Virus record (IMG/VR): IMGVR_UViG_3300025009_000346
Span: 1-26,369 of that record
DNA length: 26,369 nt
DNA from: a virus
Strand: one strand, 5' to 3'
Shown here: in pieces, positions 12,382-23,768 of the stretch
Position numbering within the stretch: the stretch's first letter is position 1
Layout: every line of letters begins with the position of its first letter
Translations under genes and position numbers: made by a program
The notes under the pieces: generated by a model
The model's input: the letters and a program-made list of their open reading frames with translations, nothing else
What the model was told of the DNA's origin: nothing
The model's database searches: none

Positions 12382-12415
12382 AAGTTTTATTTAAAAAATA
12401 AAAGCAGAATTTTAT
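12382..12415 (+). promoter_or_regulatory. Recurrent TTTTAT element, doublet
   Basis: AAGTTTTAT at 12382-12390 and GAATTTTAT at 12407-12415, cores 25 bases apart, upstream of the small gene at 12435. Confidence 0.4.
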
Positions 12416-12434
12416 GAACTAAGAAGGAGAAAAA

Positions 12435-12659
12435 ATGGAAGTTATTAATATTACTTTAAGTGTAAATTACGAAGGAGGAAGCGTAGCCGATATTGCAGAA
12501 AGATTATATTTGATTCTTTTGTCAAATAAATCTTTGAAAATTGATAAAGTCTCAGTGAATGGAAAGGGGATTGGCCTACCATTTTACGATGCCTTAAGTC
12601 GTCATGATGAAATCAATCTTGAACTAACCAGCATGGACAAAGTTATTGATAGATTTTAA
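12435..12659 (+). CDS. Small protein of unknown function
   Basis: A 74-residue protein, not recognised. It begins with a strand (INITLSVNYEGG), followed by a helix (VADIAERLYLILLS) and a strand (LKIDKVSVNG), a small alpha/beta pattern. AAGGAG at 12424-12429 supports the start. It is the first gene after the RecD2-like helicase and is preceded by the doubled TTTTAT element. Confidence 0.7.
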   Translation: MEVINITLSVNYEGGSVADIAERLYLILLSNKSLKIDKVSVNGKGIGLPFYDALSRHDEINLELTSMDKVIDRF

Positions 12660-12690
12660 TCAATAAAATGACGTTTCTATAATAAATCTG

Positions 12691-12699
12691 AAATTTTAT
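12691..12699 (+). promoter_or_regulatory. Recurrent AAATTTTAT element
   Basis: A copy directly abutting the AAGGAG ribosome binding site (from 12699) of the gene at 12713. A degenerate partner (TTCTAT) lies about 20 bases upstream. Confidence 0.35.
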
Positions 12700-12712
12700 A
12701 AGGAGCGTATAA

Positions 12713-12985
12713 ATGGCACTTAAAAAAGATTGGGATGAGCTTGAAAAGGGAGATTGGTATTTTATAAACGATGATACATATATTGCTGTTCAATATGGGG
12801 ATGATCGTTTTCTTGAAACATGTGTCTTGCCAATAAATAAAACCACTGGTAGAGCATCTTGGAATTGGAACAATAGCAAGGAGTCTCCAACCCTTCGACC
12901 ATCTATTGCCGTTTATGGAAATGGTAGAAATAATCCACCAACATGGCATGGATATTTAACAGATGGCAAATTGACTATTGCATAA
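12713..12985 (+). CDS. Small protein resembling the DUF6527-type phage family
   Basis: A 90-residue protein. The segment ESPTLRPSIAVYGN (about 57-70) followed by WHGYLTDGKL (78-87) resembles small phage proteins with a P-T-x-x-P-S-I block and a W-H-G/H-x-x-x-x-G ending. From memory these match the DUF6527 group, sometimes mislabelled ammonia monooxygenase. Unlike many relatives, the second half has no cysteines. Function unknown. AAGGAG stands 7 bases before the ATG. The structured element at 13016-13094 begins about 30 bases after its stop. Confidence 0.68.
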   Translation: MALKKDWDELEKGDWYFINDDTYIAVQYGDDRFLETCVLPINKTTGRASWNWNNSKESPTLRPSIAVYGNGRNNPPTWHGYLTDGKLTIA

Positions 12986-13015
12986 TTTCCACTTCTATGA
13001 TATATTAAATTCATC

Positions 13016-13094
13016 TAGTGGTTTCCACTATGAAAGAGGGCGCTTCTAAATTGCCAGTATTGGTGAAGTTACAGGTGTAACAAGAAGCGCCCTC
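13016..13094 (+). ncRNA. Candidate structured RNA: small hairpin plus GC-rich branched stem
   Basis: First hairpin: TAGTGG (13016-13021), TTT loop, CCACTA (13025-13030). It is followed by a perfect 12-bp GC-rich stem, GAGGGCGCTTCT (13036-13047) with its exact complement at 13083-13094. The 35 bases inside can form GCCA-GTAT-TGGT (13053-13064, one G-U pair) and GTTAC-AGGT-GTAAC (13068-13081), giving a three-way junction. No T-run follows on +, so it is not a simple terminator. A possible weak promoter lies upstream (TTGACT 12971-12976, TATGAT 12996-13001, 19-base spacer). I searched by eye for hammerhead, preQ1 and purine riboswitch cores and for tRNA features and found none. It may be a small RNA or a leader element for the gene at 13136. 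Confidence 0.5.
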
Positions 13095-13106
13095 GTTATG
13101 GTAAAT

Positions 13107-13126
13107 AAAAAAAAAAAAAAAAAAAA
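13107..13126 (+). repeat. Homopolymer tract of 20 A
   Basis: Twenty consecutive A residues between the branched stem and the ribosome binding site AAGGA (13125-13129) of the gene at 13136. The exact length could be a sequencing or assembly artefact and could vary by slippage. Confidence 0.85.
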
Positions 13127-13135
13127 GGATTCAAA

Positions 13136-13549
13136 ATGTATACCGATAAACTTAATGATTTTTTCAATGTTGTAGATCAATTAATTGAACTCAACAAACA
13201 AAATAGAAATACTACTGCTAAAAAATATTTAGATGAAATATCATATTTAAAACAGTATTGCACAATTATCGTGGACATAGGAAGGAATGTCGGTAAAACA
13301 ACTTATATAAGATCACGCGCAAAAGAAAATGATTTGATTATCGTTTCGAGCATGTTTTCTATTATTGGTACTAAGTCCCATCAGGAGATTTTATATAATC
13401 AAACTTCTTTTAGAAATAATGGCTATGAAACTATTTATATAGATGAGCCGAAACGGTGTTTTGCGGAATTGAATTTTGATGAATTTTTACAAAGAATTGT
13501 GAATTCAAAACTTGAACAAACAATTATTTGCTTAGGTACATGGAATTAA
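13136..13549 (+). CDS. Small P-loop NTPase-like protein
   Basis: A 137-residue protein with a clear Walker A motif GRNVGKTT (49-56) preceded by the strand TIIVDI, and a Walker B-like YIDEP (101-105). The distance between them and the small size indicate a minimal P-loop NTPase without the usual C-terminal sensor or arginine-finger region. It could be a stand-alone ATPase or the front part of a larger ancestral protein. I do not recognise the family. AAGGA lies 6 bases upstream of ATG 13136 and overlaps the end of the A tract, so tract length could affect translation. Confidence 0.75.
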   Translation: MYTDKLNDFFNVVDQLIELNKQNRNTTAKKYLDEISYLKQYCTIIVDIGRNVGKTTYIRSRAKENDLIIVSSMFSIIGTKSHQEILYNQTSFRNNGYETIYIDEPKRCFAELNFDEFLQRIVNSKLEQTIICLGTWN

Positions 13550-13581
13550 TTAATAAAATATAGTATTTATTAGGAGATACA

Positions 13582-13839
13582 ATGGAACAAAATCTACGAT
13601 TTGCCGCAACATATAGAGATGATATGTGGATAACTATACAATTTATGGAATTAAAAAAGGGAGATTTGTTCTATCTTTTTGAGCCTGATGGAACAAGAGT
13701 TTACGATGAAAATAGCAATTTAGTATTTCGAGCAGAAACAGACGCTTATTATAATAATAATAACATTGGAGCTATCCAATATACAATTCCTCGGCATGAA
13801 TTGAAACTTATTTCACAATCAGCGTGGAGCAATGAGTAA
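13582..13839 (+). CDS. Small phage protein of unknown function
   Basis: An 85-residue protein. The segment ELKKGDLFYLFEPDGTRV followed by FRAETDAY resembles a short beta-rich family in phages, recalled from memory, with no known function. GGAG lies upstream of the ATG. It is followed three bases later by the tiny gene at 13842, suggesting coupled translation. Confidence 0.72.
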   Translation: MEQNLRFAATYRDDMWITIQFMELKKGDLFYLFEPDGTRVYDENSNLVFRAETDAYYNNNNIGAIQYTIPRHELKLISQSAWSNE

Positions 13840-18187: not shown

Positions 18188-18196
18188 GAATTTTAT
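18188..18196 (+). promoter_or_regulatory. Recurrent GAATTTTAT element
   Basis: A copy of the element just before TGGAGA, the ribosome binding site of the exonuclease gene with a GTG start. Confidence 0.35.
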
Positions 18197-18209
18197 TGGA
18201 GAATAATAA

Positions 18210-21915: not shown

Positions 21916-22078
21916 ATTTCAGAAGCATATAATCGAATTGGGAATACTAACATATCTGGATAAATCAGATAAACCTTGTTGGTGGACACATTATAATTTA
22001 TTATTGTTTACCAATGAACTATGTAGTTTTCGAAACAACGAAAAAGGATATATACGCAATGAAAATTATTGGTGCTAG
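21908..22078 (+). CDS. Possible tiny gene overlapping thyX start (56 aa)
   Basis: ATG 21908 overlaps the stop of the acidic gene by 8 bases and reads 56 codons to TAG at 22076, running 20 bases into the thyX coding region. The product begins MTEFQKHIIELGILTYL and contains CWWTHYNLLLF. It has a natural look up to about residue 40, but its last residues are encoded by the thyX ribosome binding region. No clear Shine-Dalgarno. Translation is uncertain. Confidence 0.35.
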   Translation: MTEFQKHIIELGILTYLDKSDKPCWWTHYNLLLFTNELCSFRNNEKGYIRNENYWC

Positions 22079-23768
22079 TTATGAAATTCTAACTCCTATT
22101 AACGGAGAAGAAATACTAAAATTTCTAGAGTTAGCGGGTAGAACATCTTATAAAAGCGAAGATCGAATTACGCCCGATTCCGCAAGAAAATTCATCAGTG
22201 CTATTATTAAAAGTGGTCATGAATCGGTTATTGAACATGTTATTGTTAGTGTAAGGATTATTTGTGACCGTGGTTGTTGCTACGACGATCAAACCAAAGT
22301 TCTTACTGAAAATGGATGGAAGTATTTTAAAGATGTAAGTGCAAATGACATTTTCTATAGCTTAGACGATAATGAAAATATTGTTAAAATAAAAGGAATT
22401 AAGAAAATAGAAATTTTATATAACGGTCAAATGCATCACTATAAATCTACACAAATTGATTTAATGGTTACACCAAATCATAATATGTGGGTTTTTGATT
22501 TTGATAAACGTTCCAATAAAACAAGAACTTGGAAATTTATTGAATCAAATCAAATGAATAATAAAAGATATGTATTTAATAAATCTGCCAAATCAAAACT
22601 CAATATTATTCAACCCAAGAAAATAAAAATTCCTGAAATATTTATTCCGCGTGGATTTTACAATAAGAAATATCCAGAATTAGAATTTGAATCTAATGCG
22701 TTTTGGGAATTAATAGGATGGTGGGTTACAGACGGATCAATAAATTATCCTAAAAATGGTAGTGGAAAGCGTTGTATTATTTCTCAAAAAAAAGAATTTG
22801 GCAGACAGAGAATTAAAGAATTACTCAAATCTCTAAACATTGACTTTTATGAGGAAGATGATGGATATCGTATTAATTGTCCTCAATTATTACGTTGGCT
22901 TGCCGATAATTTTTTAAGAAGTGGAGATACTCGAAAAAGTTATTATTGCAAAATTCCAAGATGGATGTTTAACCTTTCATCACTAGATATCGAAAATTTA
23001 TTGAAGGGAATTATTGGAGGGAATGGAACAAAGCATACTGGTGGAAAGGGATATCAAATTTATACTGGGAGTAAGGATTTTGCGGAAGATTTAGTTGAAC
23101 TTTGTTTGAACATTGGTTTAGCAGCAAATATTTATATTGTTCCACCAAAGAAAAGGTTATTTCCAGGTAGGAAAAATACTACCATGTGTCGAGAACAATA
23201 TGTTGTTTCTATTGTAACTACAACCAAACCCATGTTTGATAAAAGAGTTGCTTGTAGAAACGAAATTCAATATTCCGGCTATGTCTATTGTGTCGAATTA
23301 CCTCAATATCATCGATTATATGTTATGAGAAACGGTAAACCTGTTTGGTGTGGAAATTCACACGAATTGGTTAGACATAGAATCGCAAGTTATACTCAGG
23401 AAAGTAGCCGTTACTGCAACTACAGCAAAGCAAAGTTCGGTAAAGAAATTACGGTTATCAAACCCCTGGATTGGGAAGAAGATTCTTTGTCCTATCTCAT
23501 GTGGAAAGATGCTTGTGAAAATTGTGAAAGAAGTTATTTCATTCTACTCGAAGAGGGTGTGACCCCTCAACTGGCTCGAAATGTACTTCCACATTCTTTA
23601 AAAACAGAACTGTTTATGACGATGAATCTGAGAGAATGGAGGCATTTCTTCAAGGTGAGAACACCATCTGATGTTCACCCTCAAATGAGGGAAATTACAA
23701 TTCCAATGCTGAGAGAGTTTCAGGAAAGAATTCCTGTTATTTTTGATGATATTCTTATAAAGGAATAA
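22059..23768 (+). CDS. thyX: Flavin-dependent thymidylate synthase ThyX, interrupted by an intein
   Basis: The exteins join to about 209 residues of ThyX, which makes dTMP from dUMP using FAD, NADPH and methylene-tetrahydrofolate. N-extein (73 residues) begins MKIIGASYEILTPINGEE and contains GRTSYKSEDRITP and SGHESVIEH; C-extein (136 residues) begins SHELVRHRIASYTQESSRY, which is the ThyX signature, and ends with NLREWRHFFKVRTP. I start at ATG 22059 because homologues start M-K-I and AAGGA lies 10 bases upstream; an in-frame ATG at 22014 would add 15 residues with no ribosome binding site. Presence of ThyX, not ThyA, suggests independence from the host folate cycle type. Confidence 0.9.
   Translation: MKIIGASYEILTPINGEEILKFLELAGRTSYKSEDRITPDSARKFISAIIKSGHESVIEHVIVSVRIICDRGCCYDDQTKVLTENGWKYFKDVSANDIFYSLDDNENIVKIKGIKKIEILYNGQMHHYKSTQIDLMVTPNHNMWVFDFDKRSNKTRTWKFIESNQMNNKRYVFNKSAKSKLNIIQPKKIKIPEIFIPRGFYNKKYPELEFESNAFWELIGWWVTDGSINYPKNGSGKRCIISQKKEFGRQRIKELLKSLNIDFYEEDDGYRINCPQLLRWLADNFLRSGDTRKSYYCKIPRWMFNLSSLDIENLLKGIIGGNGTKHTGGKGYQIYTGSKDFAEDLVELCLNIGLAANIYIVPPKKRLFPGRKNTTMCREQYVVSIVTTTKPMFDKRVACRNEIQYSGYVYCVELPQYHRLYVMRNGKPVWCGNSHELVRHRIASYTQESSRYCNYSKAKFGKEITVIKPLDWEEDSLSYLMWKDACENCERSYFILLEEGVTPQLARNVLPHSLKTELFMTMNLREWRHFFKVRTPSDVHPQMREITIPMLREFQERIPVIFDDILIKE
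22278..23357 (+). mobile_element. Intein with LAGLIDADG homing endonuclease inside ThyX
   Basis: A 360-residue in-frame insert. Splicing block A starts CYDDQTKVLTENGW with Cys1 (22278); block B contains MVTPNHNMW; the C-terminal blocks include YVYCVELPQYHRLYVM and end VWCGN, followed by Ser+1 of the extein (23358). The penultimate residue is Gly rather than the usual His. Two LAGLIDADG-like helices: LIGWWVTDGSI keeps its Asp, whereas LLKGIIGGNGT has Asn at the second catalytic position. The insertion lies just before the RHR signature, a conserved functional site. The host gene would be intact only after protein splicing. Confidence 0.87.

Follow-up and report, generated by a model that had tools for sequence, protein, structure and literature searches.

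A compact branched fold ahead of a small P-loop NTPase gene in an AT-rich phage, a putative structured mRNA leader

What does a GC-rich branched structure do in front of a small P-loop NTPase gene in an uncultured AT-rich phage? The structure lies in a 26,369-nt stretch of viral DNA (IMG/VR record IMGVR_UViG_3300025009_000346), all of which was analyzed and is referred to below as the window. The preliminary description, made from the sequence alone, offered four options, namely, a phage small RNA, a leader of the NTPase gene, a replication signal, and a decoy RNA, and proposed folding and an Rfam search as checks. On the + strand, positions 13010-13094 fold as RNA into a 5' hairpin, P0, followed 1 nt later by a three-way junction that consists of a 12-bp closing stem, P1, and two inner hairpins, P2 and P3.

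13010..13034, + strand: P0, 5' hairpin; 6 bp (13016-13021/13025-13030) plus 4 bp (13010-13013/13031-13034) across a 2-nt bulge
13036..13094, + strand: three-way junction closed by P1; z-score of -7.1 for the 81-nt core, top fold in the window, 0 of 200 simulations
13051..13066, + strand: P2, inner hairpin UUGCCA-GUAU-UGGUGA; 13051-13056/13061-13066, 6 bp including two G-U pairs, loop GUAU
13068..13081, + strand: P3, inner hairpin GUUAC-AGGU-GUAAC; 13068-13072/13077-13081, 5 bp, loop AGGU

P1 is a perfect GC-rich stem, GAGGGCGCTTCT/AGAAGCGCCCTC, at 13036-13047/13083-13094, and encloses 35 nt. The single-stranded joints of the junction are 3, 1, and 1 nt long, with a single A between P2 and P3. 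The perfect stem, its 35-base interior, and the two hairpins within it had all been recognized in the preliminary description, as had the 6 bp at the center of P0; however, that hairpin is longer than reported, with 4 extra pairs across the bulge. The inner pairs of P0 have probabilities of about 0.9 to 1.0.

This structured fold is real and far beyond chance. Its minimum free energy is -41.2 kcal/mol over 141 nt (z-score of -5.6) and -35.0 kcal/mol for the 81-nt core (z-score of -7.1), and in neither case was any shuffled sequence as good. The element has the most stable 120-nt fold among 1750 overlapping sliding windows on both strands. An inverted repeat of 12 bp containing 8 or more G or C residues is seen once in the window, and 200 simulated windows with the same dinucleotide makeup contained none, in agreement with the earlier remark that the GC-rich stem stands out from its surroundings. 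An inverted repeat necessarily gives a fold on the complementary strand as well; that fold is worse, with P2 cut to 3 bp and its G-U pairs lost, which makes the + (coding) strand the likelier RNA. TTATGGT, located beyond P1, is an alternative partner for the 3' arm of P0, and a switch between P0 and an extended P1 is possible, but when P0 is present this pairing accounts for only approximately 1 to 12% of the molecules. Two other ideas about the interior were discarded. A 9-codon leader peptide (TTG-CCA-GTA...) starting at 13051 behind AGAGGG was rejected on inspection by eye, because its would-be Shine-Dalgarno sequence is locked in P1 and there is no regulatory codon run. The P2 loop also resembles the nonanucleotide at which CRESS-DNA viruses are nicked, a likeness dismissed as chance.

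The surroundings of the fold contain the following features.

12713-12985: DUF6527 gene, upstream of the element
12971..13001, + strand: promoter-like pair, TTGACT (12971-12976) and TATGAT (12996-13001), 19-nt spacer
13107..13126, + strand: stretch of 20 A residues separating the junction from the ribosome binding site
13125..13129, + strand: probable ribosome binding site (RBS) AAGGA, judged from the sequence
13136..13549, + strand: small P-loop NTPase gene, 137 amino acids, PHROG 2586, weak match to Pfam AAA_14; the gene presumed to be under the leader

Thus, the element does lie downstream of a promoter-like pair and upstream of the RBS of the NTPase gene (AAGGA at 13125-13129, gene at 13136-13549), as first described. 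The promoter-like pair is present with the reported separation of 19 but is graded weak because of that long spacer, and the window holds 42 promoter-like matches of this quality against about 31 expected, concentrated in approximately 1.7 kb of noncoding sequence. From this weak match, transcription is predicted to start at about 13007-13009, 1 to 3 nt before P0. TTGACT recurs, by eye, as a -35-like box before an IMPDH-like gene in relatives. The ATG is found 41 nt 3' of the end of the stem, and the RBS is outside the fold and unmasked. No T-run follows the stem, where GTTATGGTAAAT comes next, and so the element does not qualify as an intrinsic terminator; a search of 12400-13800 on both strands found no terminator-like sites, and the initial judgment that this is not an ordinary terminator stands. 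The A-tract, which the preliminary description had missed, is the only homopolymer of at least 9 residues in the window. It exceeds the longest A-run (17) among the 200 simulated windows, and three related contigs, totaling about 326 kb, have no A or T run of at least 11 residues.

With one exception, the genes called heuristically in the window lie on the + strand, and replication genes are located near the element. A PADLOC search of five nearby proteins found no defense family, and a tRNA search found no tRNA. NTPase and DUF6527 homologues are few and distant. The single NTPase homologue in IMG/VR (34% identity, on contig L001) has no structure upstream, which indicates that the pairing of the element with the NTPase gene is not conserved. 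In contig L001, TGA codons stand in frame at many sites that look like Trp positions (by eye), suggesting that it may come from a TGA-recoded phage. Elsewhere in the window, at 22014-23768, there is a thymidylate synthase ThyX frame, apparently with a LAGLIDADG intein.

Searches for relatives of the element itself gave no homologue. Rfam has no credible match, either at the gathering threshold for the window or at E values up to 10 for 12960-13150, which extends the earlier failure to match a known ribozyme or riboswitch by eye. A nucleotide search of phages and plasmids returned only short chance matches. The exact stem is absent from IMG/VR, and its 22 matches in 84,980 GTDB genomes are in unrelated genomes and have different interiors, with no copy of the element among them. 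The loop-and-joint pattern has 4 matches in IMG/VR, none with the same fold. A covariance model built from the single sequence found only chance-level matches in the relatives; the top match in the contig search sits within a reading frame of 728 amino acids. As model, pattern, stem, and BLAST searches of IMG/VR relatives and of phage and plasmid records found no homologue, the element is considered an orphan.

The DNA polymerase (PolB) of the window shares about 32% identity with the polymerases of crAss-like phages and 70% with its counterpart in G003 (contig L013), an IMG/VR phage of 137.7 kb. G003 is syntenic with the window up to and including a RecD-like helicase, after which the gene content diverges, and it contains neither the NTPase gene nor the element. 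At this place, five more phages whose helicases are about 48% identical carry other genes (an IMPDH-like gene in 4 of them) and no such structure. Other leader-like hairpins are shared within the lineage. Positions 611-647 of the window form a 15-bp hairpin without a T-run, between a TATAAT-like box and an RBS, and its counterpart in G003, likewise of 15 bp and flanked by the same two genes (L013 2701-2741), has a largely changed stem sequence; the lineage thus retains leader hairpins. Further intergenic hairpins of G003 are located 20 to 80 nt before start codons and also lack T-runs. A cluster of repeated palindromes, GGTACGTAGTACC, is located at G003 30240-30326, within an intergenic gap. 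A TTTTAT(A/T)AGGAG-like string stands right at the Shine-Dalgarno sequence of many genes, both in the window and in G003; intergenic examples are found at 12693-12706 and 18190-18200 of the window and at L013 14945-15410.

Two more distant PolB-related phages in IMG/VR, G008 and G009, encode RNAs of the Rfam family int-alpA, with two copies in the former and one in the latter.

L132 1501-1569 (G008 28161-28229): int-alpA RNA
L134 1501-1568 (G008 23260-23327): int-alpA RNA
L133 1501-1570 (G009 86705-86774), minus strand: int-alpA RNA

In all three copies, the branched fold is just 5' of the RBS of an open reading frame (ORF), and the two G008 copies are directly 3' of near-consensus promoters. 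Two of the downstream ORFs have a common C-terminal nuclease-like region (by eye) and the third has a subthreshold HNH match; these ORFs therefore likely encode homing endonucleases. In each copy, the second hairpin has a loop complementary to the 3' tail (UCCCUA/UAGGGA, CUCAAC/GUUGAG, and UCCUAA/UUAGGA), which suggests a covarying pseudoknot.

Taken at roughly one chance in two, the favored reading is that 13010-13094 acts in cis as a structured 5' leader on the mRNA of the P-loop NTPase, where it would serve as a stabilizer or a translational operator. Among the four options of the preliminary description, this is the one that the layout favors, with a promoter-like pair, a predicted start before P0, no terminator, and an RBS and ATG that follow; the small RNA has no 3' end signal, and the replication signal and the decoy have no positive evidence. 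With transcription predicted to start 1 to 3 nt before P0, the 5' end of the mRNA would abut a hairpin. P0 would then shield the message from 5'-end-dependent decay, in which removal of pyrophosphate is followed by attack from nucleases of the RNase E or RNase J type, and the A20 tract would leave the RBS free of pairing and accessible. The three-way junction may be an operator to which a protein of the phage or of its host binds. Since the RBS is not sequestered, riboswitch-like masking is unlikely. The leader assignment is further supported by the strength of the fold and its preference for the coding strand, by hairpins of the 611-647 type without T-runs in the lineage and by the branched int-alpA RNAs in the equivalent slot of the PolB relatives; the weak promoter with its 19-nt spacer, the lack of an element homologue, and the nonconserved pairing with the NTPase gene speak against it.

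None of five rival explanations has direct support. A free-standing, trans-acting phage sRNA, processed out of a longer transcript or ending near A20, is rather improbable: its compact branched fold would resemble that of int-alpA, an sRNA type in Rfam that is found in distant relatives, and the promoter-like pair upstream could serve it, but the 3' end has no terminator or T-run, an RBS and a start codon come immediately after, and there is no match to int-alpA. A-tracts can act as Hfq-type binding sites, a role that is putative for A20. Slightly less credit goes to an RNA processing or boundary signal, either an RNase III type site or a terminator without a U-tract, that would part the NTPase gene from upstream transcription. 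The element is indeed a long perfect stem between same-strand genes, and several intergenic hairpins of G003 similarly lack T-runs; however, 12 bp is short for RNase III, the T-run is missing, and the elaborate junction would be superfluous for either role.

Also considered was a signal at the level of DNA, for example a replication start, a single-strand initiation site, or a protein-binding site; the inverted repeat adjoins a 20-bp A-tract, the DNA strand folds too, and replication genes are near. Such a signal is improbable, as the GC skew is positive throughout with no turn at the element, the G-U pairs favor RNA, and the syntenic G003 has no such element. In phage HK022, the put sites are stem-loops that lie side by side where the transcript begins, and the pair of neighboring helical domains at the predicted start might similarly modify RNA polymerase as it leaves the promoter. 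Such a put-like antitermination RNA is very doubtful here, given that it has no conserved sequence for comparison, no Rfam match, and no terminator just downstream to overcome. Least credible is a foreign insert or an assembly artifact, that is, a host repeat or a misjoined stretch with a homopolymer. A GC-rich stem in an AT-rich phage, the odd A20, and the absence of the element from the nearest syntenic phage would fit such an origin, whereas the 22 stem matches in 84,980 genomes are unrelated, none being a copy of the element, and the downstream ORF and its RBS are intact.

A structured phage leader is an already known kind of feature, and the sequence of this element is without known relatives. 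If the element is a leader, the window would add one more large AT-rich phage that opens an accessory message with a stable folded RNA. Taken alone, it is an orphan of modest general importance. The int-alpA RNAs of the relatives suggest that this slot can take different branched RNAs, in which case int-alpA, an sRNA in Rfam, could itself be tested as a cis-acting leader. A bolder proposal is that the element belongs to a new family of phage RNAs, compact and branched, that in this lineage occupies the slot that int-alpA fills in distant relatives, behind a promoter and before small accessory genes. Accessory genes would then be controlled during infection by the branched fold together with A20, acting either as a regulator bound by a protein or as a released small RNA; this is unlikely.

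Among known systems, the prohead RNA (pRNA) of phage phi29 is a phage-encoded RNA with a three-way junction. The window element is likewise a phage-encoded three-way junction but has no Rfam match at any threshold, is not free-standing, and is located ahead of an RBS. It shares with int-alpA (RF02996), another phage RNA, a compact branched architecture of a closing stem that bears two hairpins and, for the copies in the PolB relatives, a place directly ahead of an RBS. Nevertheless, a search of the window record with this family gave no match at E values up to 10. The joints differ (3, 1, and 1 nt versus about 2, 5, and 2 nt in int-alpA), the GAAAAGC-type joint between the inner hairpins of int-alpA is replaced by the single A, and the AGGU loop does not pair with the tail, unlike the corresponding loop of the three int-alpA copies in the relatives. 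Unlike int-alpA, the window element has an extra 5' hairpin and an A-tract. The window element is therefore not int-alpA; the two have a layout in common but not a family.

As to function, secondary structure at the 5' end stabilizes bacterial mRNA by slowing the removal of pyrophosphate and 5'-end-dependent decay (PMC3997798). The 5'-terminal stem-loops of the ompA, papA, and aprE type (PMC3997798) place a hairpin at the 5' end of the message, a position that is only predicted here, and leave the RBS free, as in the window, where the hairpin is accompanied by a three-way junction and stabilization is putative. In phage T4, leader structures serve as protein-bound operators, a hairpin about 40 nt before the start in gene 43 and a pseudoknot in gene 32 (PMC3014915). 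The product of the window gene differs in being a small P-loop protein, the RBS lies outside the structure, and autoregulation is without support. As in these T4 operators (PMC3014915), however, the putative phage leader is structured, and the distance of about 40 nt in gene 43 compares with 41 nt in the window.
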